Source: Desulfovibrio sp. (GTDB lineage: Bacteria; Desulfobacterota; Desulfovibrionia; Desulfovibrionales; Desulfovibrionaceae). From it: a stretch of 56,849 bases of DNA. Below are positions 7,364-34,887 of the stretch, piece by piece. Below the pieces are notes generated by a model, which saw nothing but the letters and a program-made list of their open reading frames with translations, had not been told where the DNA came from and made no database searches. The DNA lies in the NCBI GenBank assembly GCA_031287575.1, contig JAITSV010000017.1, positions 1-56,849 of the forward strand. The letters run 5' to 3'. The position numbers were made by a program, and so were the translations under genes. Within the stretch, counting starts at the first letter, position 1. Each line of letters opens with the position of its first letter.

Positions 7364-7561
7364 ATGCCCAAGATGAAGACCCGGCGTTCCGCCGCCAAGC
7401 GCTTCTCCGTGACCGGCAGCGGCAAGTTCAAGCGCCGCAAGCAGAACCTGCGCCACATCCTCACGAAGAAGAACGCCAAGCGCCGCATGCGCCTCGGCCA
7501 GTCCGCCACCGTGGACAGCACCAATGAGAAGGCTGTGCGCCGGATGATGCCCTACGCCTAA
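7364..7561 (+). CDS. rpmI: Large ribosomal subunit protein bL35
   Basis: A 65-residue basic protein, the normal length for bL35 of the 50S subunit. It begins PKMKTRRSAAKRFSVTGSGK and contains KQNLRHILTKKNAKRRMRL, both conserved. The ATG at 7364 follows AAGGAG by 7 nt. The 218-bp gap after infC is long for this operon and could hold an autoregulatory leader of the kind L20 binds in other bacteria, but I see no convincing match. A palindromic element begins at the last base of its stop codon. Confidence 0.95.
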   Translation: MPKMKTRRSAAKRFSVTGSGKFKRRKQNLRHILTKKNAKRRMRLGQSATVDSTNEKAVRRMMPYA

Positions 7562-7707
7562 CGAAGGCGTTCAAAAAAGTACTTTTGCCCTCCGGCTGCG
7601 TCGGACTCGCCTTTTGCTCCGGTCGAGTACCAAAGAGTACACTCCCTTCGCAAAAGACTCGTCCTCCTTGCCGGAGAACAAAATTCCTTTTTTTGAATCG
7701 CCTTCGT
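7561..7707. repeat. Palindromic element family A, copy 1 (rpmI-rplT gap)
   Basis: A 147-bp imperfect palindrome that begins at the last base of the rpmI stop codon. The outer arms ACGAAGGCG plus TTCAAAAAA pair with the right end (7688-7707) with one bulge. Inner stems are CTCCGGC 7590-7596 with GCCGGAG 7670-7676, and CTTTTGC 7611-7617 with GCAAAAG 7650-7656. The conserved family blocks are TTTTGCCCTC, TGCGTC, TCCGGTCGAGTACC, GTACACTCCCT, CCTTG and AGAACAAAAT. The same blocks with different stem sequences occur at 9252, 23449 and 34584. Confidence 0.85.
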
Positions 7708-7831
7708 CGGGGCCTCTGCCCCGGCAAGGCGTGCTCTCTGTCCAACGAGAGCGCATCCCGCACTTTACATTATCCGCTCCGCTGGCCCGGTCTCTCGCCT
7801 CGCGGAGTCAAGATCACGATGGAGGTATTCC

Positions 7832-8185
7832 ATGCGCGTGAAGAGAGGTCTCGCCTCCCACAGGCGTCACAAGAAGTATCTGGACGCGGCCAAGGGTTTC
7901 CGTGGCGGCCGCAGCAAGCTGTACCGCACCGCCCGCGAGGCCGTGGAACGTTCGTGGATGTACGCGTTCCGCGACCGCAAGGTGAAGAAGCGCGAATTCC
8001 GCAAGCTGTGGATCCTGCGCATCAACGCCGGCGCCCGCATGCACGGTCTGTCGTACAGCAAGTTCATGCACGGCCTCACCCTTGCCGGCATCTCCCTGAA
8101 CCGCAAGGTGCTTGCCGACCTTGCCGTGCGCGAGAAGGAAGATTTCGCGAAGCTGGCGCAACTCGCCGCCTCGAAACTCAACTAA
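7832..8185 (+). CDS. rplT: Large ribosomal subunit protein bL20
   Basis: A 117-residue basic protein, the standard bL20 length. It begins [15 protein letters not shown] and has [19 protein letters not shown] and [13 protein letters not shown], all conserved. L20 binds 23S rRNA early in 50S assembly and in some bacteria represses its own operon. The ATG at 7832 follows GGAGG by 7 nt. A 270-bp gap with palindromic element A1 separates it from rpmI, which is unusual because these two genes are normally nearly adjacent. Confidence 0.96.
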
Positions 8186-8206
8186 CCCCATACGGGGTCT
8201 CTACGC

Positions 8207-9244
8207 ATGGACCTTCTCAAGGAACTGGAAAGCCTGGTCCCGGAACTCGAAAGAGGCCTGGACCAGGCTTCGTCGTTGACGGAGCTTGAGGAACTGCGCG
8301 TCGCCTTCCTTGGTCGCAAGGGGCGTCTTGCGCAGATCATGGGCCGCCTGCCCGAACTTTCGCCGGAGGACCGGCCCCGCCTGGGGCAGGCCGCCAACGG
8401 CGTCAAGATGGCGCTCACCGAACGCTTCGAAGGCCGCAAGACCGCCCTCGAAGCCGCCAGCGAGGCCGCCGCGCTTTCCCGCTTCGACCCGACCCTGCCC
8501 GGCCGCGCGCCGTGGCGCGGTTCGCTTCACCCCGATACCCTGGTCATGGAGGAAATCTGCTCCGTGTTCCGGGGGCTTGGTTACGACATCGTGACCGGGC
8601 CGGAAGTGGAGATGGACCACTACAACTTCGAAGCGCTGAACATGCCCGCCGAACACCCGGCGCGCGACATGCAGGACACCCTGTATGTCACCGAGTCCAT
8701 CCTGATGCGTACCCACACCTCGCCGTTGCAGGTGCGCACCATGCTGGCGCGCAAGCCTCCGGTGGCCATCATCGCCCCCGGCAAGGTCTATCGCCGCGAC
8801 TCGGACATCACGCACACCCCCATGTTCCACCAGATCGAAGGCCTGATGGTGGACAAGGGCGTGAGCATGGCCGACCTGCGCGGCACGCTCACCTCGTTCC
8901 TGCGCACCGTGTTCGGCGGCGATACCAGGGTCCGCTTCCGCCCCAGCTTCTTCCCCTTCACCGAACCCAGCGCCGAGGTGGACATCTCGTGCTGCATCTG
9001 CGGCGGCAAGGGGCACGTGGGCAACGAACCCTGCCGGGTGTGCAAGACCACCGGCTGGGTCGAGATCCTGGGCTGCGGCATGGTGGATCCCGCCGTGTTC
9101 ACCGCCGTGGGCTACGATCCCGAAGAATACACCGGCTTCGCCTTCGGCCTCGGCGTCGAGCGCGTGGCCATGCTCAAGTACGGCATTGGTGACCTGCGCA
9201 TGTTCTTCGAGAATGATGTCAGGTTCCTGTCGCAGTTCAGGTAG
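8207..9244 (+). CDS. pheS: Phenylalanyl-tRNA synthetase alpha subunit
   Basis: A 345-residue class II catalytic subunit of the (alpha-beta)2 enzyme that charges tRNA-Phe. The N-terminal coiled coil (about residues 1-85) is followed by motif 1, motif 2 ([20 protein letters not shown]) and the motif 3 region ([16 protein letters not shown]). An insertion near residues 261-285 carries CxxC pairs (SCCICGGKG and [10 protein letters not shown]), a zinc-ribbon-like feature I associate with deltaproteobacterial PheS. It lies 21 bp after rplT in the same operon. A roughly 350-bp spacer with repeat elements separates it from pheT, its obligate partner. Confidence 0.96.
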
Positions 9245-9251
9245 CCACTGA

Positions 9252-9391
9252 CCCCGGATGGGTCTTTCGCCCGCTGGCGGCGTCGGGCGCGCCTTGTGCC
9301 CCTGTTGCGCGAGAGTCACGTACAGGAAAAGTACGCTCGCCTCGGCCAAGGCTTGCCCTTCTTGCCAGCGAACGAAATCCCTCATCCGGGG
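9252..9391. repeat. Palindromic element family A, copy 2 (pheS-pheT gap)
   Basis: A 140-bp palindrome starting 8 bp after the pheS stop codon. The outer arm CCCCGGATG pairs with CATCCGGGG at the right end. The inner stem CGCTGGC (9272-9278) pairs with GCCAGCG (9364-9370). Family blocks are TTTCGCCC, GGCGTC, a GTAC-AGGAAAA-GTAC centre, CTCGCCT, TTCTTG and GAACGAAATCC. Compared with copies 1 and 3, both sides of the stems change together. Confidence 0.8.
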
Positions 9392-9453
9392 CGGTTGCTG
9401 TCATGAACACTGTTTTTTGAATGCTTCTGCGGGGCAACCTGCCTCGTTCGGAA

Positions 9454-9556
9454 GGGGTGCAGGGGACAGCTTCCGCGCTGCGATCGCCATCCGTAAGGCT
9501 CGCGAGCTCGCCTAACGGCTGCCGTCCTTCCCGCGGAGGCGTAAAAAACGCCTGAC
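9454..9556. repeat. Degenerate family-B repeat with nested family-C unit (pheS-pheT gap)
   Basis: GGGGTGCAGGGG at 9454-9465 and CGGAGGCGTAAAAAACGCC near 9534-9552 match two blocks of the inverted repeat between murG and murC (GGGGTGCAGGGGG and CGGAGGCGTAAAGACGC). Between them, 9488-9521 is a family-C unit of the form ATCCGTAAGGCTCGC...CTCGCCTAACGGCT, also found inside element A4. The gap looks like a nest of inserted repeats. Confidence 0.55.
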
Positions 9557-9595
9557 GACCCCGCCCCTTCGCAAACTTTCTCATGGAGTAGCCCC

Positions 9596-12004
9596 ATGCT
9601 GCTGTCCCTTGCCTGGCTGCGCGAATTCGTTCCCTTCGAAGGCACCGCCGAACAGCTCGGCGACCGTCTGACCATGCTCGGCCTTGAACTGGAGGAAATC
9701 CGCCGCCCGTTCGACGCCATCCGCGCCATCGTGGTGGGCCACGTGGTGGAGCGCGCCAAGCACCCGGAGGCCGACAAGCTGTCGGTGTGCAAGGTGGACG
9801 CGGGCCAGGGCGAGCTGCTGGACATCGTGTGCGGCGCGCCCAACGTGGCCGCCGGCCAGAAGGTGCCGGTGGCCCTGGTGGGCACCACCATGCCGGGCGG
9901 CCTGGTCATCAAGAAGGCCAAGCTGCGCGGCCAGCCCTCGCACGGCATGATCTGCTCCGAGCGCGAACTGGGCCTCAGCGACGACCATGAAGGCATCATG
10001 GTCCTGCCGGAGCACTTCACGGTGGGCAGGCTGCTGGTGGACGAACTGCAACTGGACATGGAGGTGTGCGACATCTCCATCACGCCCAACCGCGCCGACT
10101 GCCTTTCGGTGCTGGGCCTTGCGCGCGAAGTAGCACTGGGCTTCGGCCTGCCGCTGACGCTGCCCAGGCTGAACCTGATGGAAGACGGCCCGGACTGCTC
10201 CGGCGAGGTGGCCATCGAAATCGCGGACCCGGCCCTGTGCCATGCCTACCACGGGCGCATTCTCGAAAACATCCGCGTGGGCAAGAGCCCGGCACGTATC
10301 CGCCATCGCCTCACCGCCATCGGCGTGCGCCCCATTTCCAACATCGTGGACGCCACCAACTACGTGATGATGGAACTGGGCCAGCCCATGCACGCCTTTG
10401 ACCTGGACCTGCTGGAAGGCGCGCGCATCGTGGTCTCCCCGGCGGTGGCGGGCGAGCGCATCGTGACCCTGGACGGCCAGGACCGCGCGCTGGTGGCGGG
10501 CGACCTGCTGATCCGCGATGCGGTGAAGCCCGTGGCCCTTGCGGGCGTCATGGGCGGCGCCAACTCCGAAGTTTCCGACGCCACCACCCGCGTGCTGCTG
10601 GAAAGCGCCGTGTTCCGCCCCGGCACCGTGCGCCGCACGGGCCGCAGGCTGGGCCTTTCCAGCGAGGCGTCGTACCGCTTCGAGCGCGGCGTGGATCAGG
10701 CGGGTGCGGTGTACGCCATGCATCGCGCGGCCCAGATGATGGCCGAACTTTCCGGCGCGCGGCTGCGCCCCGGCATGTGCAGCGCCGAACCGCGCCCCTG
10801 GGCCAGCCCCGCGCTGCGCTTCCGCCCGGCGCGCGCCCGCATGCTGCTGGGCATGGGCGAGGACACCATCGGTGACGCTTTCTGCGCCGACACCCTGACC
10901 GGCCTCGGCTGCGTGGTGGACAAAATCGACGCCGCTGACTGGAAGGTCTCCGCCCCCAGCCATCGCCTGGACTTCGAGCGCGAGGCCGACCTGATCGAGG
11001 AAGTGGGCCGCGTGTACGGGTTGGACGCCATTCCGCCGGTGCTGCCCAAGGTCATGCGTCCGTTGGACCAGGCGGGCGCGCCCGAGTCCGAGTACGATTT
11101 CTGGAAGCGCATCAAGGGCTGGGGCCGCGGCCTTGGCCTGAACGAGGCCATCAACTACAGCTTCGTGGGCCAGAAGGACCTGGATCACCTGGGTCTGTCC
11201 GCCGAAGGGCGCATCCCGATCATGAACCCGCTGTCGGAAGACCAGAACGTGCTGCGCACGGCGCTGGCCCCCGGCCTTCTGAACAACCTGCGCCACAACA
11301 TCGCGCAGGGCAATGCCGGGCTGCGGCTGTTCGAACTGGCGCGTATCTTCACCGCGGACGCCGCGTCGGAAACCACCGCTTGCGAGCGGGGGCGCCTGGG
11401 CATCCTGATGTACGGCGCGCGCCACGACAGCGCCTGGCCCAACCCGGAAGCCGACGCCGACTACCAGGACCTGAAGGGCGTGGTGGAACACTTCGCGGCC
11501 TTCCTGCACCTGGGGCAGCCGCACTGCGCCATGGCCGAGGCGCCGCACCCCTTCCTGGCCCCGAGCGTCACGGTGACGGTGCAGGGCAGGGTGCTGGGCG
11601 TCATGGGCCGGGTAAGGCCCGACCTTGCCGACGCCTACCACGCCCGCAAGGACGTGTGGCTGGCCGACATCGATCTGGATGCGGCGCGCCAGATGCACGA
11701 CGCGGTGACGGTGCGCTTTGCCGCGCTGCCGGTGTATCCGCCGGTGCGCCGCGACATCACGGTCATGGCCCCTGCCGCGTTGCAGGCAGGCGCGGTGCTG
11801 GACCATGTGCGCGGGATGAAACTGCCGCTGCTGGAAGGCGTCGAACTCATTGACGTGTTCGCCCCTGAAGACCGCGAGGAACGCAACCTGACCTTCCGCA
11901 TGACCTTCCGCCATGCCGGGCGCACCCTGAAGGACGCCGAAGTGGACAAGGAACGCGAGAAAGTGGCAAGTTCGCTCCAGCAGGCACTCCCCATCCGGCT
12001 TTAA
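9596..12004 (+). CDS. pheT: Phenylalanyl-tRNA synthetase beta subunit
   Basis: An 802-residue partner of PheS, normal for the long bacterial form. It starts MLLSLAWLREFVPFEG. Domains in order: N-terminal EMAP/tRNA-binding OB fold (about residues 39-150, VVGHVVERAKHPEADKLSVC), B3/B4 editing domain (GVRPISNIVDATNYVMMELG), B5 DNA-binding-like domain, the class-II-like core, and a C-terminal FDX-ACB anticodon-binding domain (YPPVRRDITVMAP to the end). The ATG at 9596 follows ATGGAGTAGCCCC. The long spacer from pheS means the two subunits cannot be coupled by overlap and may depend on mRNA structure or processing for balanced synthesis. Confidence 0.96.
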   Translation: MLLSLAWLREFVPFEGTAEQLGDRLTMLGLELEEIRRPFDAIRAIVVGHVVERAKHPEADKLSVCKVDAGQGELLDIVCGAPNVAAGQKVPVALVGTTMPGGLVIKKAKLRGQPSHGMICSERELGLSDDHEGIMVLPEHFTVGRLLVDELQLDMEVCDISITPNRADCLSVLGLAREVALGFGLPLTLPRLNLMEDGPDCSGEVAIEIADPALCHAYHGRILENIRVGKSPARIRHRLTAIGVRPISNIVDATNYVMMELGQPMHAFDLDLLEGARIVVSPAVAGERIVTLDGQDRALVAGDLLIRDAVKPVALAGVMGGANSEVSDATTRVLLESAVFRPGTVRRTGRRLGLSSEASYRFERGVDQAGAVYAMHRAAQMMAELSGARLRPGMCSAEPRPWASPALRFRPARARMLLGMGEDTIGDAFCADTLTGLGCVVDKIDAADWKVSAPSHRLDFEREADLIEEVGRVYGLDAIPPVLPKVMRPLDQAGAPESEYDFWKRIKGWGRGLGLNEAINYSFVGQKDLDHLGLSAEGRIPIMNPLSEDQNVLRTALAPGLLNNLRHNIAQGNAGLRLFELARIFTADAASETTACERGRLGILMYGARHDSAWPNPEADADYQDLKGVVEHFAAFLHLGQPHCAMAEAPHPFLAPSVTVTVQGRVLGVMGRVRPDLADAYHARKDVWLADIDLDAARQMHDAVTVRFAALPVYPPVRRDITVMAPAALQAGAVLDHVRGMKLPLLEGVELIDVFAPEDREERNLTFRMTFRHAGRTLKDAEVDKEREKVASSLQQALPIRL

Positions 12005-12073
12005 GGTCAGGCGGGGAGCGCCGCGTGCCCGCGCGGTTCGTGCGGGCGCACGGTCAGTGAAACGGGAGACGGC

Positions 12074-12832
12074 ATGGCGGAGCGGACATACCGGATAGGC
12101 GAGGCGGCGTCGCTGCTGAACCTGAAGACCTATGTCCTCAGGTTCTGGGAAACGGAGTTTCCCCAGTTGGTTCCGCTGCGTACCGAAAAGGGCCAGCGCC
12201 TCTATACCGAGGCGGACCTGGCCCTGCTGCGGCGCATCCGGTTTCTGCTGCACGAACGCGGCCTGACCATCGAAGGCGCGCGGCGCATGCTGGCCGAGCG
12301 GGGAGCACAATCCGGTACCGGCATGTCCGATACGGGCATGGCCGGTCTTGCTGACATGCCCGACCTTGCTGACAGGGCCGACAGGGCTGACTTGGCTGGC
12401 ATGTCGGATACGATGGGCACCGGGGTAGCCGGGCTGGTTGGCTTTGGCGATGACGACCCCGACGACATGCATCTGCCCGATGGGCAGGATGATGACGCTC
12501 TTGCTGATGACGATGCCGCCGCCGATATGGATGGCAACGCCCCGGCCACGTCCGGCCTGCAGGGCCGCGCCCTGTCTGCCGCTGCCTCGCGGGTGCAGGC
12601 GTGGGACCAGTACCTGCACGGGCTGCTGCTGCCCGATGACGGCGTAACGCCGCAATCGGGTACCCGAAGCGGCTTTACAGCGCCTTCGGCAGGTCAGGGG
12701 GCAACCCCGGATGGCGGCAGCGACAGCTTTTCAACAGACGGCTCTGTACCCGGCGCTGCCGACCCCGGAACGGTGCGCGAGATCATCGCGGAACTGGAGG
12801 CCATGCGCCGCCTGCTGGCTGGCGCGGACTGA
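12074..12832 (+). CDS. MerR-family transcriptional regulator with acidic low-complexity tail
   Basis: A 252-residue protein. Residues 1-78 form a MerR-type winged helix-turn-helix (YRIGEAASLLNLKTYVLRFW, then GQRLYTEADLALLRRIRFLL). Genes of this type are often found right after pheST. Residues ~80-150 are Asp/Gly/Met-rich with loose repeats (GMAGLADMPDLADRADRADL) and an acidic stretch DDDALADDDAAADMDG. The C-terminal ~90 residues (AASRVQAWDQYLHGLLLPDDG, then REIIAELEAMRRLLAG) look like a dimerisation helix. No effector-binding domain or metal ligands are visible, so the signal is unknown. It is 69 bp after pheT and probably in the same transcript. Confidence 0.85.
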   Translation: MAERTYRIGEAASLLNLKTYVLRFWETEFPQLVPLRTEKGQRLYTEADLALLRRIRFLLHERGLTIEGARRMLAERGAQSGTGMSDTGMAGLADMPDLADRADRADLAGMSDTMGTGVAGLVGFGDDDPDDMHLPDGQDDDALADDDAAADMDGNAPATSGLQGRALSAAASRVQAWDQYLHGLLLPDDGVTPQSGTRSGFTAPSAGQGATPDGGSDSFSTDGSVPGAADPGTVREIIAELEAMRRLLAGAD

Positions 12833-12956
12833 TTCCGCCATCTTTCCGCTCGGGGGGGGGGCTGCCGCCCCTTTCCGTTGCCCGTCGCCGCCACTGCCTT
12901 TTCCTTTCGCGCACTGCGCAACGGAGTACAATGGGCACGGCGTCATGCATCCGTCT

Positions 12957-13022
12957 GCGTCCCTACGCGTTACCACGCCTCCCCCGCGTCCTCACGCGTC
13001 CTTACGCATCCTTACGCAATCG
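12957..13022. repeat. Degenerate ~10-bp tandem repeat
   Basis: Several imperfect copies of a CGTCCTTACG-like unit run in tandem just before rpe (for example TCCTCACGCG, TCCTTACGCA, TCCTTACGCA). The repeat array is non-coding under the chosen rpe start. Confidence 0.6.
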
Positions 13023-13062
13023 GGCATTTCCCGCAACCGCGCATCCGCGCCACGAGCACCGC

Positions 13063-13722
13063 ATGATCCTTTCCCCTTCGCTGCTGTCCTCCGACTTTGG
13101 CCGCCTTGCCGACGAACTGGCCGCCCTGGAGGCTGCCGGTGTGTCCTGGGTTCACTGGGACGTCATGGACGGCACCTTCGTGCCCAACATCACCTACGGC
13201 CAGCCGGTCATCGGACATCTGCGCAAGCAGAGCCGCCTGTTTTTCGACGTGCACCTGATGGTGGAACGCCCGGAACGCTACCTGCACGAATTCGTGGATG
13301 CCGGGGCCGACATGCTGGTGGTCCACGCAGAGGCCACCCCCCATGTGCAGCGCGCCCTGGCCGAAATCCGCCGCCTGGGCGTCAAGTCCGGCGTGGCGCT
13401 GAACCCGCACACCCCGCTTTCGGTGCTGGACTATGTGCTGGACGACGCGGACATGGTGCTGATCATGACCGTCAACCCCGGCTTCGGCGGCCAGTCGTTC
13501 CTGCCCGCCAGCTATCGCAAGATCAGCGACCTGCGCGCCATGATCAACGCGCGCGGCCTGTCCACGCTCATCCAGGTGGATGGCGGGGTGGACCCGTCCA
13601 ACACGGCGCGATTGGTGAAGAGCGGGGCGGACGTGCTGGTTTCCGGCTCGGCCTTCTTCAAGTTTCCGCCGTATGCCGAGCGGTTGAAGGCGTTCGAGGC
13701 GGCGGCCAACTCCGTCCTCTAA
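13063..13722 (+). CDS. rpe: Ribulose-phosphate 3-epimerase
   Basis: A 219-residue TIM-barrel enzyme interconverting ribulose 5-phosphate and xylulose 5-phosphate. Family motifs are intact: ILSPSLLSSDFGRL, WVHWDVMDGTFVPN (metal-binding His and catalytic Asp), FDVHLMVERPERY, VHAEA, GVALNPHTPL, MTVNPGFGGQSF (catalytic Asp lies upstream) and IQVDGGVDPSN. The ATG at 13063 gives the usual N-terminus; an in-frame extension upstream runs through a tandem repeat and is not conserved-looking. The Shine-Dalgarno is weak (GAGCACCGC). It precedes tkt by 292 bp; both act in the non-oxidative pentose phosphate pathway. Confidence 0.95.
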   Translation: MILSPSLLSSDFGRLADELAALEAAGVSWVHWDVMDGTFVPNITYGQPVIGHLRKQSRLFFDVHLMVERPERYLHEFVDAGADMLVVHAEATPHVQRALAEIRRLGVKSGVALNPHTPLSVLDYVLDDADMVLIMTVNPGFGGQSFLPASYRKISDLRAMINARGLSTLIQVDGGVDPSNTARLVKSGADVLVSGSAFFKFPPYAERLKAFEAAANSVL

Positions 13723-14014
13723 CGTCGACGCGTGATGGGGTGGAGCTTTCGTGGCCGGTAACGCCATGGCGCATCCGCTGATGTGATTTTCCCGTTGCCA
13801 GATGGCGCGGAACGGACTAGTCGGGTGTGGGCGCCGCCGCAGGGCAGTGCCCACCTCTCGCATGTGCGGCACATCCCGCCGCATGCATGATCGTTGCGGC
13901 AGGACGCATGTGCCCGCCATCCGTGTATTTCCCGGCGCACCGCGCCGTACCGCTGCATAGCCAACGGCGCAGGGCGCCCGCCCGCCGCCGCACAGAACCC
14001 CGCTGGAGGTTGCA

Positions 14015-22189: not shown

Positions 22190-23449
22190 ATGCCCAGCAT
22201 TCGCAAGAGCCTGCTCCAGTTCGTCTTTTCCGGTGCGTACATGAAGCGGTGGAACGACAAGCTGCGGCCCGTGGAACTGATGGAGGTGGACAAGCAGGCC
22301 CACAAGATGATCGTGGCCTGGCTGCTGCTGCAACTGAACACCCGTGGCCTGCCCGCCGGGGAACGGCTGCGCCTTGGCGCCGAAGTGGTGGAAGGCTGCC
22401 TGTTCGACTATTTCTACCGGCTGGTCATCACCGACATCAAGCCGCCGGTGTTCTACCGCATAAAAGAGAACGAGGCCCACTACAGCGAACTTACCGAGTG
22501 GGTGGCGGAAGAACTGGAACACATCGTGCGCCCGCTGGACGAGGACTTCTGGCAGCGGCTGCTGACGTACATCCGCCGCCGCGAAAAGAACACCCTGCCC
22601 GACCGCATCCTGACCGCCGCGCACCTCTACGCCAGCGGCTGGGAATTCAACCTCATCAAGCCGCTGAACGGGTTCGACGACGAAATGCCGGACATCGACG
22701 GCTCGTTCCAGACCCGCCTGACGGCCATGGCCGACCTGGCCGGGGTGCCGGAACTCATCGGCGGCTCCAGCAACGCGCTGGGGCGTTTCGCCAACCTGTG
22801 CGGGCAACTGCGCTTTCAGAAACGCTGGTCGCAGACCCCGCGCATTCCGGAAACCTCGGTCATCGGGCACATGTTCATCGTGGCCTGCTACGCCTATTTC
22901 TTCAGCATCGCCGTGGGCGCCTGCCCCGCCCGGCGCCTGAACAACTTTTTCTGCGGCCTGTTCCACGACCTGCCGGAAGTGCTGACCCGCGACATCATTT
23001 CGCCGGTGAAGCGGTCCGTGAAGCAACTGCCCGAACTCATCCGCCAATATGAAGAGCAGGAAATGCAGGAACGGGTGTTCTCGTTGCTGGACAAGGCGGG
23101 CTACGGCGACGTGGCCAGCCGCCTGGGCTACTTCCTGGGGCTGGCCACCGGTTCGGAGTTCGACGAGACCGTGCGCGAGCCCGGACCCGACGGCACGTCG
23201 TCCGTTGTCCGCAAGGTGACCTTCGACGAGTTGCAGTCCACCTGCAACATCGACGCGCTGGACCCCAAGGACGGCCGCCTGGTGAAGGCCTGCGACACCC
23301 TGGCCGCCTTCATCGAAGCGCACACCTCGGTGCGCAACGGCGTGACCTCCAGCCATCTGCAAGAGGCCATCGCCCGGCTGCGCGGCGAGTACCGCCGGGT
23401 GACGCTGGGGCCGTTGCATGTGGGGGCGCTTTTTGCCGACTTCGACTAG
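22190..23449 (+). CDS. HD-domain phosphohydrolase (YfbR-like HD_3 type)
   Basis: A 419-residue protein. The HD signature is in the middle: VIGHMFIVACYAYFFS (first His, about residue 225) and GLFHDLPEVLTRDIISPVKR (HD pair, about residue 262). The LPEVLTxDIxxPVK pattern is like that of YfbR-type 5'-deoxynucleotidases, which are much shorter. The N-terminal ~200 residues and C-terminal ~110 residues are extra and unassigned, so the substrate is open. The ATG at 22190 follows GGGAGG by 5 nt. It has its own promoter at 22125 and a family-A palindrome begins at the last base of its stop codon. Confidence 0.8.
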   Translation: MPSIRKSLLQFVFSGAYMKRWNDKLRPVELMEVDKQAHKMIVAWLLLQLNTRGLPAGERLRLGAEVVEGCLFDYFYRLVITDIKPPVFYRIKENEAHYSELTEWVAEELEHIVRPLDEDFWQRLLTYIRRREKNTLPDRILTAAHLYASGWEFNLIKPLNGFDDEMPDIDGSFQTRLTAMADLAGVPELIGGSSNALGRFANLCGQLRFQKRWSQTPRIPETSVIGHMFIVACYAYFFSIAVGACPARRLNNFFCGLFHDLPEVLTRDIISPVKRSVKQLPELIRQYEEQEMQERVFSLLDKAGYGDVASRLGYFLGLATGSEFDETVREPGPDGTSSVVRKVTFDELQSTCNIDALDPKDGRLVKACDTLAAFIEAHTSVRNGVTSSHLQEAIARLRGEYRRVTLGPLHVGALFADFD

Positions 23450-23595
23450 GCGAGGCCCGTGCATGGGGGCTTTTGCCCTCTGCCTGCGTCAGAACGCCGT
23501 TTCATTCCGGTCGAGTACCACAAAAGTACACTCCCTCCATGAAACGGCGTTCTTCCTTGGCAGAGAACAAAATCCCCACCTGCACAGGCCTCGCC
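23449..23595. repeat. Palindromic element family A, copy 3 (after the HD-hydrolase gene)
   Basis: A 147-bp palindrome that begins at the last base of the stop codon. The outer arms GGCGAGGCC and GTGCA pair with the right end (TGCACAGGCCTCGCC). A perfect 15-bp inner stem joins 23491-23505 and 23539-23553, and CTCTGCC (23478-23484) pairs with GGCAGAG (23559-23565). The centre TCCGGTCGAGTACCA plus GTACACTCCCT is almost identical to copy 1, while the stems differ. The rest of the gap to 23956 has no gene; 23640-23665 may hold a decayed half copy. Confidence 0.9.
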
Positions 23596-27487: not shown

Positions 27488-27601
27488 TTGGCTTGTTGCG
27501 TTTTATTTTTGTATTATCGTGAAATTGTTTGATATATTTCGTGTATCTCATGAAGGTAAATCGCCATTAGAAATTTTCTAGACTCTGCCGGAGCCCACGG
27601 C
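27488..27601. other. AT-rich block upstream of the dcw promoter
   Basis: About 110 bp of clearly AT-rich DNA (for example TTTTATTTTTGTATTATCG and GTTTGATATATTTCG) in an otherwise GC-rich chromosome, in the divergent pyk-mraZ gap (27231-27788). Such a block could be an UP-element-like or regulator-binding region. No gene is visible in the gap. Confidence 0.5.
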
Positions 27602-27660
27602 TTGACAGTGCCAGACATATCATAGAGAAAGTGGGAAATTGTGGTAAAAGGTGGTAGAGT
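27602..27660 (+). promoter_or_regulatory. dcw promoter with three 10-bp MraZ-type operator repeats
   Basis: TTGACA at 27602-27607 is followed after 15 bp by TAGAGA. Immediately downstream are three direct repeats with exact 10-bp period: GTGGGAAATT (27631), GTGGTAAAAG (27641) and GTGGTAGAGT (27651). MraZ is known to bind TGGGN/GTGG-type direct repeats spaced by 5 nt in the promoter of its own operon. The site therefore predicts autorepression of the cluster. The -10 is uncertain; the repeats are clear. Confidence 0.8.
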
Positions 27661-27788
27661 CTCCCGGAAAAGGCCCCTTCCCTCCGATGAAAACATCCCC
27701 TGCGGTACGCGGGGGAAACGGTGGAAGCAGGGTCCGTAGTTTCGACACTTCGCGCAACGGCGTGAGATGACAGGCAAGTGGTGTTTCC

Positions 27789-28238
27789 ATGTTGTTCAGA
27801 GGCCGTTCCCACCGCAGTCTCGACCCCAAGGGCCGACTGATGCTGCCGCCGGATTTCCGCGACATCCTCGTGTCGCGTGCCGACGGCGGCAAGCTGGTGC
27901 TGACCAGCTTCGACGACTGCGTCATGGGCTACCCCCTGCCCGACTGGGAAGACTTCGAGCGCAAGTTCTCCACCCTCAAGAATCCTTCGCGCAAGATGCG
28001 CGATTTCCGCCGCCTGGTCATCGGCAGCGCCGAACTCATGGAACTGGACGGCCAGGGCCGGGTGCGCATTTCACGGTCGCACATGGACTACGCGGGCATC
28101 ACCAAGGACGTGGTGCTCCTGGGCCAGGGCAGCCGCTTCGAAATCTGGGACCAGGGCCGCTTCGACGGCATCGTGGCGCAGGACTTCGACGACGTGGCCG
28201 CCGAACTGGCCGACAGTGGCATAGAACTTTCCCTTTAG
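27789..28238 (+). CDS. mraZ: Transcriptional regulator MraZ
   Basis: A 149-residue AbrB-fold regulator, first gene of the dcw cluster. It begins [23 protein letters not shown], with the conserved DxKGRxxLP motif and a second copy of the fold near residue 80 ([20 protein letters not shown]). MraZ forms a ring that binds tandem GTGG-type repeats; such repeats stand 130-160 bp upstream. The Shine-Dalgarno is weak (AAGTGG). rsmH follows after 42 bp. Confidence 0.95.
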
Positions 28239-28280
28239 GCCCGGCAGGGCACAGCCCCTTAAGAGCAACAGGATACTGCA

Positions 28281-29366
28281 ATGACCGGCGCACCCGATTC
28301 CACCACACCGCAGGCCGCCCCCGCTTCCACGGAAGGGGCCCGCGCCGCCACGCTGCACGTGCCCGTGCTGCTGGACGAGGTGCTGGAAGCGCTGGCTCCC
28401 CACCCCGGCGGCCGGTACCTGGACGGCACCGTGGGGCTTGGCGGCCATTCCGCCGCCATCATGGAGCGCATCGGTCCGGACGGCGAACTGTGCTGCCTCG
28501 ACCGCGACACCACGGCGCTGGAACTGGCCCGCCAGCGTCTGGCCCCGTGGGGCGGGCGCGCGCACTTCTTCCACACCCGCTACGCGGACTTCGAGGCGGC
28601 GCTGGACCAGCTGGGCTGGGACAAGGTGGACGGCGCGCTCATCGACATCGGCGTGTCGTCCATGCAGATCGACATGGCCGACCGAGGCTTCAGCTTTCAT
28701 GCCGACGGCCCGCTGGACATGCGCATGGACCGGGACGGCGACGAGGCCCCGGCCTCGAAGCTGGTGAACCGGGCCACCGTGGATGTGCTGAAGGACATCA
28801 TCCTGCGCTACGGCGAAGACCCCATGGCCGGGCGCATCGCCCGCGCCATCGTGGATGCCCGCGCCGCAGGCCCCATCGAGACCACGGCCCAGCTCGCGGC
28901 CATCGTGGACCGGGCCTACCCGGCCAAGTGGCGCGCCACCTCGCGCAACCACCCGGCCACCCGCACCTTCCAGGCCCTGCGCATGGCCGTCAACGACGAA
29001 CTGGGCCAGCTGGAACGCTTTCTCGACCGCATCCTGGACCGGCTGAACCCCGGCGGACGGCTGGCGGTGATCACCTTCCACTCGCTGGAAGACCGCATCG
29101 TCAAGCACCGCCTGCGTGACGAATCGCAGGGCTGCGTGTGCCCGCGCAGCGTGTCCCGCTGCGAATGCGGCCACAAGGCCCGCGTGGACGTGCTGACCAG
29201 AAAGCCGGTCACCGCCGGCGAGACGGAACTGGCCCGCAATTCCCGCGCTTCCAGCGCCAAGCTGCGCGCGGCCCAGCGGCTGGCGGAGGGGCAGGCTCCG
29301 CGCCCCCGGCGGCGCAACAAGTACGCCCCGGAAGGCCGCGATGAAGCGGAAGGGGGCGCGTCATGA
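28281..29366 (+). CDS. rsmH: 16S rRNA (cytosine(1402)-N(4))-methyltransferase RsmH
   Basis: A 361-residue SAM-dependent methyltransferase (formerly MraW) that methylates C1402 in the ribosomal P site. Motifs: HVPVLLDEVLEAL, the SAM loop YLDGTVGLGGHSAAIM, IDIGVSSMQID, RGFSFHADGPLDMRMD, RNHPATRTFQALRMAVNDEL and FHSLEDRIVKHR. The N-terminal ~25 residues are an Ala/Thr/Pro-rich extension. The last codons overlap the start of ftsL (ATGA), so the two are coupled. Confidence 0.96.
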   Translation: MTGAPDSTTPQAAPASTEGARAATLHVPVLLDEVLEALAPHPGGRYLDGTVGLGGHSAAIMERIGPDGELCCLDRDTTALELARQRLAPWGGRAHFFHTRYADFEAALDQLGWDKVDGALIDIGVSSMQIDMADRGFSFHADGPLDMRMDRDGDEAPASKLVNRATVDVLKDIILRYGEDPMAGRIARAIVDARAAGPIETTAQLAAIVDRAYPAKWRATSRNHPATRTFQALRMAVNDELGQLERFLDRILDRLNPGGRLAVITFHSLEDRIVKHRLRDESQGCVCPRSVSRCECGHKARVDVLTRKPVTAGETELARNSRASSAKLRAAQRLAEGQAPRPRRRNKYAPEGRDEAEGGAS

Positions 29367-29650
29367 GCCACGGCGTGGGAAGCTGGGTGCTGGCCATGAT
29401 CCTGTCGGTGCTGACCAGCCTGGTGCTGGGGCTGTCACTGGTGTGGCTGAACATCGAACGCATGGACATGGCCTACAACCTGCGCAAGTTGCAGGGCGAA
29501 CTGGACGGCAGGGCGGCCCTGACCGCCAAGCTGGAAGTGGAACGGGACCGGCTGATGTCGCCATATGAACTGGGAAGGAAGGCGGAGGCCATGGGCATGC
29601 GGGGGGCACGCCCCGGCCAGATCCGCCGCATCGAGGAGGCGGGGCGCTAG
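29363..29650 (+). CDS. ftsL: Cell division protein FtsL-like
   Basis: A 95-residue bitopic membrane protein in the normal FtsL position between rsmH and ftsI. One transmembrane helix (residues ~7-29, WVLAMILSVLTSLVLGLSLVWL) is followed by a short coiled coil (YNLRKLQGELDGRAALTAKLEVERDRL) and the LMSPYELGRKAEAMGM motif typical of FtsL/DivIC C-terminal regions. FtsL links FtsB and FtsQ to the septal synthase. The assignment rests on architecture and synteny because the sequence is poorly conserved. Confidence 0.85.
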   Translation: MSHGVGSWVLAMILSVLTSLVLGLSLVWLNIERMDMAYNLRKLQGELDGRAALTAKLEVERDRLMSPYELGRKAEAMGMRGARPGQIRRIEEAGR

Positions 29651-29664
29651 CGCCCTGGAGCGTC

Positions 29665-31785
29665 ATGCTGCGAGCAGACAGGAAGTCACGCATACTCGGC
29701 AGGCCCGCGCCGCGCACCGCGCGCGACGCGCGTCCCTCTTTCGAAGCGCGCGCCCCCCGTGCCGCGCGCGTCCTGCGCAACAAGAAGGCACCCGGCGCAT
29801 CGTTCGGGGGCGGCCCCCGCTTCAATCCCTTTGCCCGCTTCGGCGAGGCGGACTGGAGCAAGGTGCGCCTGTACAGCGTGGGCTGCGTGTTCGCGCTGCT
29901 GTGGATGCTGCTGTGGTCGCGCGCCTGGTACGTGCAGGTCTACGACGGCGACCGGCTGGCAAGCCTTGCCCGCCGCCAGCACATGGCGGCGGAGACCGTG
30001 TCCGGCAGGCGCGGCGCCATCCTTGACCGCAACGGGCAGATCCTGGCCCGCAGCGTGGAGGTGCGCTCCGTGTACGTCCGCCCCGGTGAGGTCCGCGACG
30101 TGGACGCCACGGTCAACACCCTGGCCGCGGCCCTGGAAGCCCCGGTCAAGCAGGTGCGCGAGGCCATTGTCTCCAAGCGCGGCTTTGCGTGGGTGGCCCG
30201 CAAGGTGGACGACCTGGCCGCCGAAAACGTGCGCAAGGCCGGGCTGCCCGGCGTGTACCTGAGCAGCGAGTACGAGCGTATTTATCCCTTCAAGCAGATG
30301 GCCGGGCAGTTGCTTGGTTTCGTGGGCATGGAGAGCAAGGGCCTTGAAGGTCTGGAACTGACCTTTGACGAAGTGCTGAGCGGCGATTCCGCCCGCAACG
30401 TGGTGCAGCGCGACGCCGCCGGGCGCCGCCTGGACATGGACGGCGGGGCCGCGCGCGCATCGTTGCGCGGTCGTGACGTGCACCTGACCCTCGACACCCA
30501 GGTGCAGTTCTTTGCCGAGGAAGCCCTGGCCCGCTCCGTGGACCAGTTCGACGCCTCCTGGGGTGGTTGCCTGGTGGTGGACGTGGATTCCGGCGACATC
30601 CTGGCCTGGGCGCAGTACCCGTTCTTCAACCCCAATGCCTACCGCGACTACAAGGCCGACCGCTGGCGCAACCGCCTGGCCGCCGACGCGCTGGAGCCCG
30701 GCTCCACGCTCAAGCCGTTTCTGGTGGCCGCCGCCCTGCAAGAGGGCGTGGTCAAGGGCGACACCACGTTCAATTGCGAAAAGGGCCGCTGGAAGACCCG
30801 CTACATCACCATCCGCGACACCCACAGCTATGACGTGCTGCCGGTGAACAAGGTGCTGCGCTATTCCAGCAACATCGGCATGGCCAAGATAGGGCTTGAG
30901 CTTGGGTCCAAACGGTACTGGGAATACCTGAACCAGTTGGGCTTCGGCGACCGCACCGGCCTGCCCATCACCGAGAGCAAGGGCATCCTGCGCGATCCGC
31001 GCCACTGGTCCGAGCCGGACCTGATCACCACCTCGTTCGGCCAGTCCATCGCCGCCACCGGCGTGCAGATGGCCCAGGCCTATCTGACCCTGGCCAATGG
31101 CGGCGAACGCAAGCCGCTGCGCCTGGTGGCGGACACCGGCGACGACACCCCGGCCAACTCGGCCAGCCAGAAGGTGTACAACGACAAGACGGTGAAGCAG
31201 GTCATCTCCATGCTGCGCGAAGTGGTGGAGGAAGACGGCACCGGCACCCGGGCGCGCATCCCCGGCATCATGGTGGGCGGCAAGACCGGCACCGCGCAAA
31301 AGGCTGACGAAACGGGGCGTTACGGCCACAAACGGCTGGCTTCCTTTGTGGGTTTCGCGCCCATCGACAAGCCCAAGTACCTGATTTTGGTCATGGTGGA
31401 CGAACCCCAGAAAAATTCGTACGGCGGCGTGGTCGCCGCGCCCGTGTTCAAGCACGTGGCCATGCGCACCATGGCCTATCATGGCCTGCTGCCCGATGCG
31501 CCCGATCCCGAGGCCCCCACCTACGCCACGCCCATGGGCAAGACCGGCCCGGTGGAAGTGCGCCGCGAGGTGGCAGAGGCCGTGCGCGAGGCCCCCGACG
31601 GGGTGCCCAACGTGGTGGGCAAGTCGGTGCGCCGGGCCGTGGAGGTGTTTGCCCGGCAAGGCATGGTGCCCGTGCTCAAGGGCGCGGGGCAGACCGTGAT
31701 CCGCCAGACCCCGGAACCGGGCACCGAATGGCCCAAGGGCCAGCCCACGGGGCAGTGCGTCCTGTGGCTTTCCGAGAATTCCTAG
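29665..31785 (+). CDS. ftsI: Septal peptidoglycan transpeptidase FtsI (PBP3) with C-terminal PASTA domain
   Basis: A 706-residue class B penicillin-binding protein. An Arg-rich cytoplasmic N-terminus (~65 residues) is followed by one membrane helix (VGCVFALLWMLLWSRAWYV), the dimerisation domain starting GRRGAILDRNGQILARS, and the transpeptidase domain. The catalytic SxxK is EPGSTLKPFL, SxN is YSSNIGMAK and KTG is GGKTGTAQKAD. The C-terminal ~60 residues form one PASTA-like domain (VPNVVGKSVRRAVEVFARQG, then TPEPGTEWPKGQ). A PASTA domain on the septal PBP is common in Gram-positives and less usual in Gram-negatives, though seen in deltaproteobacteria. Starts 15 bp after ftsL. Confidence 0.95.
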   Translation: MLRADRKSRILGRPAPRTARDARPSFEARAPRAARVLRNKKAPGASFGGGPRFNPFARFGEADWSKVRLYSVGCVFALLWMLLWSRAWYVQVYDGDRLASLARRQHMAAETVSGRRGAILDRNGQILARSVEVRSVYVRPGEVRDVDATVNTLAAALEAPVKQVREAIVSKRGFAWVARKVDDLAAENVRKAGLPGVYLSSEYERIYPFKQMAGQLLGFVGMESKGLEGLELTFDEVLSGDSARNVVQRDAAGRRLDMDGGAARASLRGRDVHLTLDTQVQFFAEEALARSVDQFDASWGGCLVVDVDSGDILAWAQYPFFNPNAYRDYKADRWRNRLAADALEPGSTLKPFLVAAALQEGVVKGDTTFNCEKGRWKTRYITIRDTHSYDVLPVNKVLRYSSNIGMAKIGLELGSKRYWEYLNQLGFGDRTGLPITESKGILRDPRHWSEPDLITTSFGQSIAATGVQMAQAYLTLANGGERKPLRLVADTGDDTPANSASQKVYNDKTVKQVISMLREVVEEDGTGTRARIPGIMVGGKTGTAQKADETGRYGHKRLASFVGFAPIDKPKYLILVMVDEPQKNSYGGVVAAPVFKHVAMRTMAYHGLLPDAPDPEAPTYATPMGKTGPVEVRREVAEAVREAPDGVPNVVGKSVRRAVEVFARQGMVPVLKGAGQTVIRQTPEPGTEWPKGQPTGQCVLWLSENS

Positions 31786-31797
31786 GAGCATCGGCAG

Positions 31798-33294
31798 ATG
31801 ACCCGTATATCTTTTGATGACCTTCTGGCCCGTGTGCGCCAGAACACGCCGGAAATCCGTACCGATTCGCGCAGGGTGGGCCGGGGCGACGTGTTCGTGG
31901 CCGTGCCCGGCGTTGCCGCCAACGGCGGCGCGGGCGTGGACGGCGCGGACTTCATCGCCAAGGCCTGGGCCGCCGGGGCCGGGGCGGTGGTGTGCCTGCC
32001 CGGCAAGGTGGAAGCAGCCCTTGCCGACGCCCCCGAAGGCGCGGTGGTGGCAGGGCACGACGACCCGCGCGCGGCCATCGGCCTGCTGGGCCAGGCCCGC
32101 TACGGCACGGATGCGCTGCCCTTTCCGGTGGTGGCCGTTACCGGCACCAACGGCAAGACCACCATCACCTATCTGCTGGAGCACGTGTTTTCCGCCCTTG
32201 GCCGCCGGGCCGGAGTGCTGGGCACCGTCAGCTACCGCTGGCCGGGCTTTGCCATGGACGCGCCGCTGACCACGCCCGACTGCATCGAAACCCACGCCAT
32301 GCTGGCCCGCATGCGCGACGCCGGGGTGGACGTGGCGCTGATGGAGGTCTCGTCGCACGCGCTGGACCAGCGCCGGGTGGCGGGCATCCGCTTTGCCGGG
32401 GCCATCCTGACCAACCTGACCCAGGACCATCTGGATTACCACGGCGACATGGAACACTACTATGCCGCCAAGGCCCGCCTGTTCACCGGACTGCCCGACG
32501 CGGACAAGGCCTGCGCCGTCAATGCCGACGATGCCTGGGGCCGCCGCCTGCTGGGCGAGGTACCGCACGCCATCGGCTTCGGGCTGGATGCGGCGCCCGA
32601 TGGGGTAGAGTCCGTTCCCGGTCGCCGGTACCTGCACGGCGAAATGGTGCGCAACGCCACCTCGGGCCTCACGCTGCGCATGACCTTCGAGGGGCGGCAG
32701 TGGGAGCTTTCCTCGCATCTCGTCGGCGCGCACAACGCCTCCAACCTGCTGGCCGTGCAGGCGGTATGCCTGGGCATGGGCCTTGCGCCGCGGGATTTCG
32801 CCAGCCTGGCCGACTTCACCGGCGTGCCGGGGCGGCTGGAGCGCATCGTGAATCCGCGAGGGCTGGACATTTTCGTCGATTACGCCCATACCCCCGACGC
32901 GCTGGAAAACGTGCTGCGCGCGCTGCGCGCGGTGGGCTTTTCGCGCATCGTCACCGTGTTCGGCTGCGGCGGCAACCGCGACCGCACCAAGCGCCCGCTG
33001 ATGGGGCAGGCGGTGGCGCGCCATGCCGACGTGGCCGTGCTCACCTCCGACAACCCCCGCCACGAGGACCCGGAGGCCATCATGGCCGACGTGCTGCCCG
33101 GCCTTGCCGGGGCGCGCGAAGTGGTCAGCGACCCCGACCGGGCCAGGGCCATCGGCAAGGCCCTGGCGCTGCTGCAACCGGGCGACGTGTTGCTGGTGGC
33201 GGGCAAGGGACACGAAAGTTACCAGCAGATCGGCGACCGCAAGGTGCCGTACAGCGACCAGCAGGTCATCCGGGAGATACTGGGGTGCAACTGA
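31798..33294 (+). CDS. murE: UDP-MurNAc-L-Ala-D-Glu:meso-diaminopimelate ligase
   Basis: A 498-residue Mur ligase that adds the third residue of the stem peptide. N-terminal uridine-binding domain (TDSRRVGRGDVFVAVPG), ATP motif VTGTNGKTTITYLLEH, EVSSHALDQRRVAGI, NLTQDHLDYHG and YYAAKARLF with the lysine that is carbamylated in the family. The C-terminal domain has VDYAHTPDALENVL, FGCGGNRDRTKRP and DNPRHEDP; DNPR selects meso-diaminopimelate. Its stop codon overlaps the ATG of the 74-codon frame that stands where murF should be. Confidence 0.96.
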   Translation: MTRISFDDLLARVRQNTPEIRTDSRRVGRGDVFVAVPGVAANGGAGVDGADFIAKAWAAGAGAVVCLPGKVEAALADAPEGAVVAGHDDPRAAIGLLGQARYGTDALPFPVVAVTGTNGKTTITYLLEHVFSALGRRAGVLGTVSYRWPGFAMDAPLTTPDCIETHAMLARMRDAGVDVALMEVSSHALDQRRVAGIRFAGAILTNLTQDHLDYHGDMEHYYAAKARLFTGLPDADKACAVNADDAWGRRLLGEVPHAIGFGLDAAPDGVESVPGRRYLHGEMVRNATSGLTLRMTFEGRQWELSSHLVGAHNASNLLAVQAVCLGMGLAPRDFASLADFTGVPGRLERIVNPRGLDIFVDYAHTPDALENVLRALRAVGFSRIVTVFGCGGNRDRTKRPLMGQAVARHADVAVLTSDNPRHEDPEAIMADVLPGLAGAREVVSDPDRARAIGKALALLQPGDVLLVAGKGHESYQQIGDRKVPYSDQQVIREILGCN

Positions 33295-33518
33295 TGTTCA
33301 CGACCGCGCGCCATGACGCGCGGGGCCGCGCCGTGCCCCATGTGGCAGGCGGGCCCGGCCTTTCCGCCCGCACCGGGCTCTGCCCGCGCGCCTGCCTGGC
33401 CGCACGCCGGGACGTTCCGTCAGGCGCACGCAGGGTCGTTCCGTCGGACGCGCCCGTGGCCGGACAACCGGAAGGGCACGTGACCGTGCTCGCCACCGGG
33501 GGGCGCCATGCTGTATAA
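33294..33518 (+). pseudogene. 74-codon frame in the murF position; possible internally deleted murF
   Basis: Where murF (about 1.4 kb) normally lies between murE and mraY, there are only 213 bp. One frame is open across it: its ATG overlaps the murE stop (TGATG) and its end overlaps the first 11 bases of mraY, so it is tied to both neighbours as a real murF would be. The 74-residue product (MFTTARHDARGRAVPHVAGG at the start, ...[10 protein letters not shown] at the end) is Arg/Ala/Gly/Pro-rich and shows no Mur-ligase motif. It could be a murF remnant keeping the first and last codons, unrelated filler, or the result of a deletion in the assembly. I cannot tell these apart from sequence alone. 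Confidence 0.5.
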
Positions 33519-34584
33519 CCTGCTGTATCCCCTCAGTTCCGAATTCACGGTCCTCAACGTCTTCCGCTACATCACCTTCCGGTCGGTGTGGGCGCTGCTG
33601 ACGGCGCTGCTGCTGTCCATCCTCATGGGGCCGCGCTTCATCGCGTGGCTGCAACGCATCAAGTGCGGCCAGCACATCCACGAGGACGTCACCTGCCACA
33701 TGCAGAAGGCGGGCACCCCCACCATGGGCGGTCTGCTCATCGCCTTCTGCCTGACGTGCAGCGTGCTGCTGTGGGCCGACCTGACCAACAAGTACGTCTG
33801 GCTGACCATGCTCATTTTTCTGGGCTTCGGCCTGGTGGGCTTTCTGGACGACTACATCAAGATCCGCCGCCGCAACAACAAGGGCCTGTCCGCCCGCGCC
33901 AAGTTCCTGGGGCAGGTGGTGGTGGCCGCCGCGGCCATGTACCTGGTGGTCAGCGAGCCGGTGTATTCCACCCGGCTGGCCTTTCCGTTCTTCAAGGGCC
34001 TGGCGCCCGACCTCGGCTGGCTGTACATCCCCTTCGCCGTGACGGTCATGGTGGGTTCGTCCAACGGGGTGAACCTCACCGACGGGCTGGACGGCCTGGC
34101 CATCGGCCCCACCATCATCGCGGGCATGGTCTTTGCCGTGTTCATCTACGTGGCGGGCAACGTGCAGATGGCCAGCTACCTGCAAGTGCCCAACGTGCCC
34201 GGCGTGGGCGAGGTTACCGTGTTCTGCGGGGCGCTGGTGGGCGCAAGCCTGGGCTTTTTATGGTTCAACGCCTACCCGGCCCAGGTGTTCATGGGCGACG
34301 TGGGCTCGCTGGCCCTTGGCGGCGCGCTGGGCTTTCTGGCGGTGCTGTGCAAGCAGGAACTGTTGCTGCTCGTCGTGGGCGGTCTGTTCGTGGTGGAAAC
34401 CCTGTCGGTGATCCTGCAGGTGGGCTATTTCAAGTTCACGGGGGGCAAGCGCATCTTCCGCATGGCCCCGTTGCATCATCACTTTGAATTGCAGGGCATT
34501 CCCGAGTCGAAGATCATCATCAGGTTCTGGATCATGTCGGCGCTGTTGGGGCTGATGGCGCTGTCCGTTCTCAAGCTGCGCTAG
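33508..34584 (+). CDS. mraY: Phospho-N-acetylmuramoyl-pentapeptide transferase
   Basis: A 358-residue polytopic inner-membrane enzyme that transfers phospho-MurNAc-pentapeptide to undecaprenyl phosphate (lipid I). Motifs: [16 protein letters not shown], the Asp pair [57 protein letters not shown] and the histidine loop [11 protein letters not shown] with [11 protein letters not shown]. About ten hydrophobic segments. The start overlaps the preceding 74-codon frame by 11 bp. Element A4 begins at the last base of its stop codon. Confidence 0.97.
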
Positions 34585-34887
34585 GGGTTGTTTCGAAATT
34601 GTCCTTTCGCCCGTTGGCGGCGTCAAGCTTCGCCTGCCATTGCGTTGCTGTCCTTATCCGCGCGTTGCGGTCCCTATCCGTAAGGTTCGCTTCGCTCACC
34701 CAACGGCTAGGGCAAGATTCGCGCTACGCGCTCGCCTAACGGCTAAGGCTCGGTCAAATACGATAAGAGCGCTTTGCGGTCCTCATCCGTAGTGGCTCGG
34801 GGACTCGCCAACGGCTGAGGCATACTCCCTCATGGCAGGCTCGTTTTCCTTGCCAACGAACGAAAACCCTAATTTGGAAACAACCCC
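34584..34887. repeat. Palindromic element family A, copy 4, with nested family-C units (mraY-murD gap)
   Basis: Begins at the last base of the mraY stop codon. The outer arm GGGGTTGTTTC plus AAATT pairs with the right end (AATTT, GGAAACAACCCC). CGTTGGC 34612-34618 pairs with GCCAACG 34852-34858, and GCCTGCCAT 34632-34640 pairs with ATGGCAGGC 34832-34840. Family blocks TTTCGCCC, GGCGTC, ATACTCCCT, TTCCTTG and GAACGAAAA are kept. The ~190-bp centre is filled by three diverged family-C units (34669-34713, 34714-34749, 34776-34821) containing ATCCGTAAGG-like and ACGGCTAAGG-like blocks. It splits two genes that are usually adjacent. Confidence 0.85.

Follow-up and report, generated by a model that had tools for sequence, protein, structure and literature searches.

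Palindromes behind stop codons in the window

The window analysed here (the whole stretch of 56,849 nucleotides from Desulfovibrio sp., GenBank assembly GCA_031287575.1, contig JAITSV010000017.1, forward strand) contains four copies of a long palindromic element, each at or close behind the stop codon of an open reading frame (ORF). All four lie where a sequence-only reading of the window had placed them. That reading had the copies splitting rpmI/rplT, pheS/pheT and mraY/murD, and NCBIfam models confirmed these flanking genes; the 419-aa ORF before copy 3 gave only a sub-threshold 5'-deoxynucleotidase match. Eighteen copies were aligned, and a covariance model, R1, was built on a consensus structure drawn from their individual folds. 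The stop codons and elements are listed below with the evidence for each.

7559..7561, + strand: TAA stop of rpmI (NCBIfam; the translation ends there), start point of copy 1 (sequence)
7561..7707, + strand: copy 1, in the rpmI/rplT gap, outer arms ACGAAGGCGTTCAAAAAAG / CTTTTTTTGAATCGCCTTCGT (sequence, R1 match)
9242..9244, + strand: TAG stop of pheS (NCBIfam), start point of copy 2, 20 nt before the core (sequence)
9245..9394, + strand: copy 2, in the pheS/pheT gap, ends approximate (R1 match 9243-9402)
23447..23449, + strand: TAG stop of the 419-aa ORF, start point of copy 3 (sequence)
23449..23595, + strand: copy 3, outer arms GGCGAGGCC...GGCCTCGCC, with a perfect 15-bp inner stem (sequence, fold, R1)
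34582..34584, + strand: TAG stop of mraY (NCBIfam), start point of copy 4 (sequence)
34585..34889, + strand: copy 4, a 305-nt long variant in the mraY/murD gap (match of its terminal inverted repeats, genome comparison)
34714..34889, + strand: part of copy 4, comprising a nested hairpin module and the right half, with many more matches per genome

In copies 1, 3 and 4 the element starts on the final base of the stop, as had been claimed. For copy 2 the earlier placement, 8 bp after the stop, needed amending: the start had been taken at the strongest part of the stem, and when measured from the conserved TTTCG block (at 9265) the distance to the pheS TAG is 20 nt, like that of the others (21 nt in copies 1 and 3).

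The element is ~150 bp long and reaches ~375 bp in forms with nested hairpins. Its outer arms measure ~20 bp. Moving inward, they are followed by a small loop of mismatched bases, a stem of the TTTTG/CAAAA or TTTCG/CGAAA type, another mismatch, a stem of 7 bp and a conserved junction in which GCGTC lies opposite TTCCTTG; beyond it come an inner stem of 15-17 bp and a conserved apex, GGTC-RM-GTAC...GTAC-R-CTCCC. The ordered blocks first noticed in the four window copies are found again in the aligned copies; it is the junctions and the apex that are conserved, not the stems. Most copies start with G. The outer arms form subfamilies, one large subfamily being GGGGCTGTTTCYAAATTG, and terminal inverted repeats (TIRs) are shared only within such subfamilies; arms of copies in other genera resembled AGGGCNTGTTNACACTATGG by eye. 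Long variants, also judged by eye, carry additional hairpins inserted in the junctions and apex, and copy 4 combines TIR-like outer arms (GGGTTGTTTC / GAAACAACCC) with extra nested hairpins.

A second, shorter hairpin family (approximately ATCCGTAAGG...CCTAACGGCT) was seen at 34714-34889 of the window and, among other loci fetched for the analysis (L numbers), at L248, L250, L251 and L254-L260. By eye, its copies lie in either orientation within the main element, at the junctions and the apex, and each genome has many of them. Several of the printed flanks also show, by eye, a separate terminator-like hairpin further downstream.

A dispersed family with empty sites in sister species

In the genome of the window (G000; other G numbers denote comparison genomes), R1 gave 123 matches at E <=0.1 with 150 of 1238 candidates scored, a scan that long variants may escape; copy 4 is not among the 123. 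A blastn search of G000 with copy 1 gave 43 matches at E <=10, 37 of them at E <0.003, the query itself included. The stretches around most R1 matches were fetched and R1 was rerun on these 98 sources. The resulting 134 matches form a 134-row alignment of 108 distinct copies and 26 duplicate or opposite-strand rows.

The covariance-model search of relatives that the sequence-only reading had proposed found further copies in the genus and the order. All eight genus genomes, G000 and seven others, hold at least 50 R1 matches each, from no more than 52 candidates scored per genome. In a class-wide draw of 247 genomes, run with strict filters and at most 12 candidates scored per genome, 67 genomes had matches, all within one order (58 belong to the family of G000 and 9 to different families of that order). 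The exact apex pattern occurred in four stretches of Nitratidesulfovibrio oxamicus, six of N. liaohensis, four of Desulfovibrio sp. A2, one of a Desulfovibrio metagenome-assembled genome (MAG) and three of a MAG labelled Clostridia. Contigs of a MAG labelled uncultured Clostridia (L232, L235 and L245) carry the apex, partly GCGTC/TTCCTTG-like parts and matched arms of their own; these copies reflect either spread beyond the order or a mislabelled bin. Copy 1 matched nothing among PLSDB plasmids and INPHARED phages. Literature searches found no paper describing the element family, which as far as they show is a large undescribed repeat family in sulfate reducers.

The element is mobile, since the same stop can be followed by an empty site in sister species and since copies that resemble each other stand between unrelated flanking sequences. 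The mraY/murD gap was readable in six genomes: G000, G003 and G007 have the element, the latter two in a shorter version than copy 4, and G001, G004 and G005 lack it. At the empty sites the mraY TAG continues directly into the flank found behind the element in G000. The site of copy 2 between pheS and pheT is occupied in four of six readable genus genomes, G000 included. In the pheS-pheT gap of G006 and G007 (L093, L096), copy 2 is missing and other G-rich palindromes (GGGGGGCGGGGAAGGG...) stand there instead. The same gap in the window holds a separate repeat downstream of copy 2 (9454-9548), to which dozens of matches in the genus genomes are related.

A wider search for joined flanks covered 32 sites in two genomes, from which 12 site-genome pairs with a hit across the joint were read (a thirteenth such hit, the L117 site in G005, was left out). 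Six pairs at four sites were clean or nearly clean absences; of the nearly clean ones, one carries 8 nt of other sequence and one is a base shorter. One further pair held a remnant of another subfamily's left arm. A further site, compared across eight genomes, is empty in G002, occupied by one subfamily in six and by a different element in G003. The comparison of syntenic gaps that had been suggested thus showed presence and absence at the same stops. The most similar copies, 92-95% alike in G000 and 97-98% alike in G033, sit in unrelated flanks. The idea, suggested by L199, that the arms copy the target flank was dropped, as G002 is empty there and other genomes carry a different element at the same stop.

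In G068 the locus L261 contains, from ~1314 (G068:C1:14613 onwards), at least four elements in tandem, repeating every 152 bp; the leading one lies directly behind the TAG stop of a 437-codon ORF. This array looks like an internal duplication.

Paired changes in the arms

The covariation noted earlier in the four window copies lies far above that of shuffled alignments. In the 18-copy alignment both sides had changed in 36 of 50 pairs, and double-change cells numbered 189 where shuffles gave 74.3 (sd 6.8); in the 134-row alignment there were 1665 against 585. Neither a lack of further copies, nor a lack of covariation, nor identical stems in all copies, which the sequence-only reading had named as outcomes that would speak against it, was observed.

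Strong covariation, together with stable predicted folds and the sense orientation of the copies, is also what would be seen if the element were a structured RNA in 3' untranslated regions and operon gaps (an RNase III or RNase E site, an exonuclease block or an attenuator) kept by selection on folding. Selection on RNA folding would favour G.U over A.C. We counted outer pairs by reading outward until two mismatches in a row and leaving out the innermost pair. The 84 copies with a canonical core gave 897 Watson-Crick pairs, 50 G.U, 69 A.C and 65 others. One inner pair divides the 108 distinct copies into 49 with G-C and 59 with A-T, with zero intermediates, and one apical pair is split 49 to 47 with one G.U. 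The 13 variable inner columns held 65 G.U and 41 A.C, with one column alone supplying 41 of the G.U. Two pair columns have frequent G.T on the element strand (65/82 and 41/108 copies), and these fit an RNA role. A G.U excess of 140:85 in an earlier count had been caused by one fixed G.T position and became 50:69 without it, and an inner-stem ratio of 52:27 (G.U:A.C) owed its skew to two fixed positions and to poor registration of the copies, which had been lined up without gaps.

Among the variable pairs G.U does not exceed A.C and intermediates are few, so the counts point to arms that act like the two halves of a DNA palindrome, each rewritten along with the other, and not to RNA pairing. 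A structured RNA is also hard to reconcile with the same genes standing without the element in sister species, with dispersal over unrelated genes and with the lack of an Rfam match. RNA-level selection as the main cause was rejected after the wobble count, and the earlier suggestion of RNA elements or RNase III sites was not supported; we regard a structured RNA as an improbable account of the family.

Rfam, searched over the whole window at gathering scores, returned a c-di-AMP riboswitch and a tRNA, neither at the elements; over the four loci at E <=1 it returned tRNA, signal recognition particle RNA and three sub-threshold matches, again none at the elements. The riboswitch (RF00379, 89.2 bits) lies at 3932-4080 on the minus strand of the window. 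Elsewhere in the window, an inverted repeat at 38673-38827 has 37-nt arms that are 92% complementary and 81 nt apart.

The element between rpmI and rplT is present in all eight genus genomes with a nearly identical interior and two arm pairs, each in four genomes. The arms drift fast but in step, which is most readily explained if one arm is copied onto the other at the DNA level, perhaps by template switching. For RNA discovery, the family is a warning that DNA palindromes can give very strong covariation, and a count of G.U against A.C helps to distinguish the two.

Insertion site, mobilisation and known systems

In G000, 92 of the 108 copies have a coding-like sense ORF whose end lies no more than 70 nt upstream of the core (TAG 74, TAA 12, TGA 6). 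The distance from stop to core is 20 nt in 32 copies and 21 nt in 13, within an overall range of 10-34 nt. Opposite-strand ORFs ending no more than 80 nt from the right side were seen at 8/108 copies, six of which also have a sense ORF and two of which do not. The 45 copies with 20-21-nt spacing have TAG in 41 cases, TAA in 4 and TGA in none, and a crude gene caller run on the same stretches gave a background of TAG:TAA:TGA ~91:33:56 for other genes. Under this background the chance of zero TGA among 45 is ~5e-8, a rough figure that treats the copies as independent. The base before the stop, taken from 55 copies, is C in 30, G in 15, T in 9 and A in 1.

The sequence-only reading had proposed palindromes resembling miniature inverted-repeat transposable elements (MITEs) that target gene ends. 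In G000 this stood up well, given the dispersal, the empty sites at the same stop and the 92/108 copies in sense orientation after an ORF. Targeting of gene ends fared less well in other genera, where 30 copies were read in each of G033 and G015. In G015 a coding-like sense ORF ends within 45 nt of the core in 24/30 copies, and TAG lies 19-22 nt from the core in 14/30, 13 of these being coding-like stops. In G033 the corresponding ORF ends were found in 17/30 copies and the TAG in 22/30, only 11 of which are coding-like stops; its five most alike copies all have the TAG, with a called ORF ending there in two. In each of the two genomes, 2/30 copies had an antisense ORF end but no sense one. 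In G026 a sense ORF precedes 11 of 12 matches (TAG 8, TAA 3); the 12 include two weak extra matches.

The left-end TAG thus also occurs away from called stops in G033, and stop-codon targeting as such was demoted for this reason. As coding-like stops account for just 11 of the TAGs in those 22 copies, gene ends are probably favoured sites and not the target as such. The G033 and G015 data make TAG part of the insertion site or of the element end, with stops as favoured or surviving sites, and a directional TAG target explains the sense orientation too. That the target is the stop codon itself, in frame and strand, with entry coupled to termination or to an mRNA intermediate and the stop rebuilt, appears very unlikely to us. 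Still less credible is the specific version in which the stop is targeted through an RNA or ribosome step and a RelE-like cut of the mRNA between the second and third bases of UAG marks the entry. Excerpts of PMC5224514 give UAG, CAG and UCG as the first reported RelE preference and place the cut after the second base of the A-site codon. The order TAG > TAA > TGA in G000 and a joint that fits a TA^G cut at two exact sites agree with such a step, but half of the TAG-bearing G033 copies, including three of the five most alike, lie off coding-like stops, the pairing statistics are of DNA type, and a TA duplication at one site suits a DNA transposase.

We favour, with a probability of about 0.66, non-autonomous mobile palindromes of MITE type that inserted directionally at TAG or TA and were kept mainly where the TAG is a stop. 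A copy would enter at TA or TAG with its left end beside that TAG, which would give the insertion its direction. Since the element mostly begins with G, entry at a TAG or TAA stop would leave the stop in place and the protein unchanged, and sense-orientation copies at stops would persist and come to predominate in G000, presumably retained there by selection. As the conserved part is the ladder of mismatched junctions and not the terminal repeats, a dedicated enzyme would probably recognise the folded-out or mismatched interior. The exact joint may be placed between the second and third stop bases or directly behind the stop: both fit the mraY and L123 sites, where no duplication is seen, and in G001 the L056 site has an apparent duplicated TA in its right flank.

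Several observations weigh against this directional-insertion account. No sense ORF was called for 16/108 copies in G000 (~6 of them misregistered long variants by eye), and none of these 16 has a TAG 19-22 nt from the core. The non-coding DNA of the same stretches contains 681 TA steps and 259 TAG words on both strands; if all non-coding TA or TAG were equally usable, 24-39% of copies would be expected at TAG or TAA stops, against 86/108 observed, an excess that simple tolerance cannot fully explain. Signs of target duplication are mixed, with TA at one site and only T before the old flank at mraY and L123. Presence and absence are unrooted, so gain and loss are not polarised at each empty site, and five of the 12 site-genome pairs were rearranged and uninformative. 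No autonomous element or transposase was found.

Alternatively, the element may be mobile and enter any TA either way, its position and orientation being set later by selection at the transcript level, where orientation matters as it does for ERIC in Yersinia; the hairpin would then be harmless or slightly beneficial only behind a stop and in the sense direction. A same-strand gene follows 57 of the 81 copies with a called next gene, so that the hairpin is probably transcribed in many, and TGA, which has no TA, is absent among the full-spacing copies. According to excerpts of PMC2229807, ERIC is co-transcribed and acts in an orientation-dependent way. Against this, the G033 copies off called stops (11/22) keep the left-end TAG, where a symmetric TA target predicts otherwise, and a fixed spacing of 20-21 nt would demand very fine selection. 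On balance we consider entry at any TA possible but unlikely.

The search for a mobilising enzyme gave one partial Y1_Tnp match in G000 (positions 71-121 of 121), and strong Y1_Tnp matches in G012 and G032, both without element matches. DDE_3 (PF13358) was not found in the carriers G000, G018, G024 and G026, and was present in two other carriers, G015 and G033, as well as in genomes lacking the element, among them G022 and G023. Neither family is supported as mobiliser because its presence does not track the element. No insertion sequence (IS) was seen at the 14 shared-TIR sites read (13 regions, 49 pattern matches); the 14, considered as solitary or widely spaced TIRs that might be ends of an autonomous transposon, proved to be long, truncated or ordinary copies.

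These results bear on a further possibility, that the family consists of REP/BIME-type repeats moved by a RAYT Y1 (HUH) transposase on single-stranded DNA hairpins, with TAG corresponding to the GTAG head of REPs. REPs keep their complementarity and carry a GTAG-type head in the excerpted account of PMC2817692, and the present family has many copies, mismatched palindromes, nested and modular copies, and a TAG beside the stem foot also away from stops. The single partial Y1_Tnp beside 123 copies in G000, and the strong ones in element-free genomes, run counter to it. A GTAG or GTGG head was not found either, the pre-stop base being G in only 15 of 55 copies. We rate this origin as doubtful at best.

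Compared with bacterial MITEs such as ERIC, RUP, Correia/NEMIS, RPE and YPAL, as portrayed in excerpts of PMC2229807, the family is alike in size (below ~200 bp), in being non-coding and palindromic with many copies and TIRs, in the TA ends of several families, and in occupying operon gaps with co-transcription (ERIC). It is short, non-coding and dispersed, with similar copies in unrelated flanks, as expected of a MITE. Unlike MITEs, it has variable terminal repeats and conserved inner mismatched junctions, its G000 copies stand one way at stops, and no donor IS was found at the TIR sites read. A RUP-like MITE would be moved by IS630 (DDE_3), and there are carriers without PF13358. REP/BIME repeats with RAYT share the copy number above 100, conserved mismatches, complementarity kept during drift and modularity (excerpts of PMC2817692); the present unit is much longer, has no matching Y1 transposase in G000 and is tied one way to the stop codon. 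The Rickettsia palindromic elements described in the excerpts of PMC2229807, palindromes of 105-146 bp over unrelated genes and of unexplained mobility, lie in frame inside coding sequences, whereas the present elements lie at the stop or outside genes.

Integron attC sites are long imperfect palindromes directly behind a stop, with variable arms and conserved unpaired bases, and the element shares these features. Unlike attC, it is gained or lost alone while mraY and pheS stay, so that cassette co-movement was not seen.

The family behaves like a MITE, and we assign it to no named family because no shared IS ends were found, the signs of target duplication are mixed, and the tests for REP and IS630 partners failed. 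Two features set it apart: inner junctions that stay conserved while the matched arms drift, and a one-way fit to TAG, through which most G000 copies come to lie at stop codons. It enters essential operons (rpmI/rplT, pheS/pheT and mraY/murD) without breaking a protein, and makes it possible to test how an element whose target resembles TAG comes to mark stops, by target choice or by selection.

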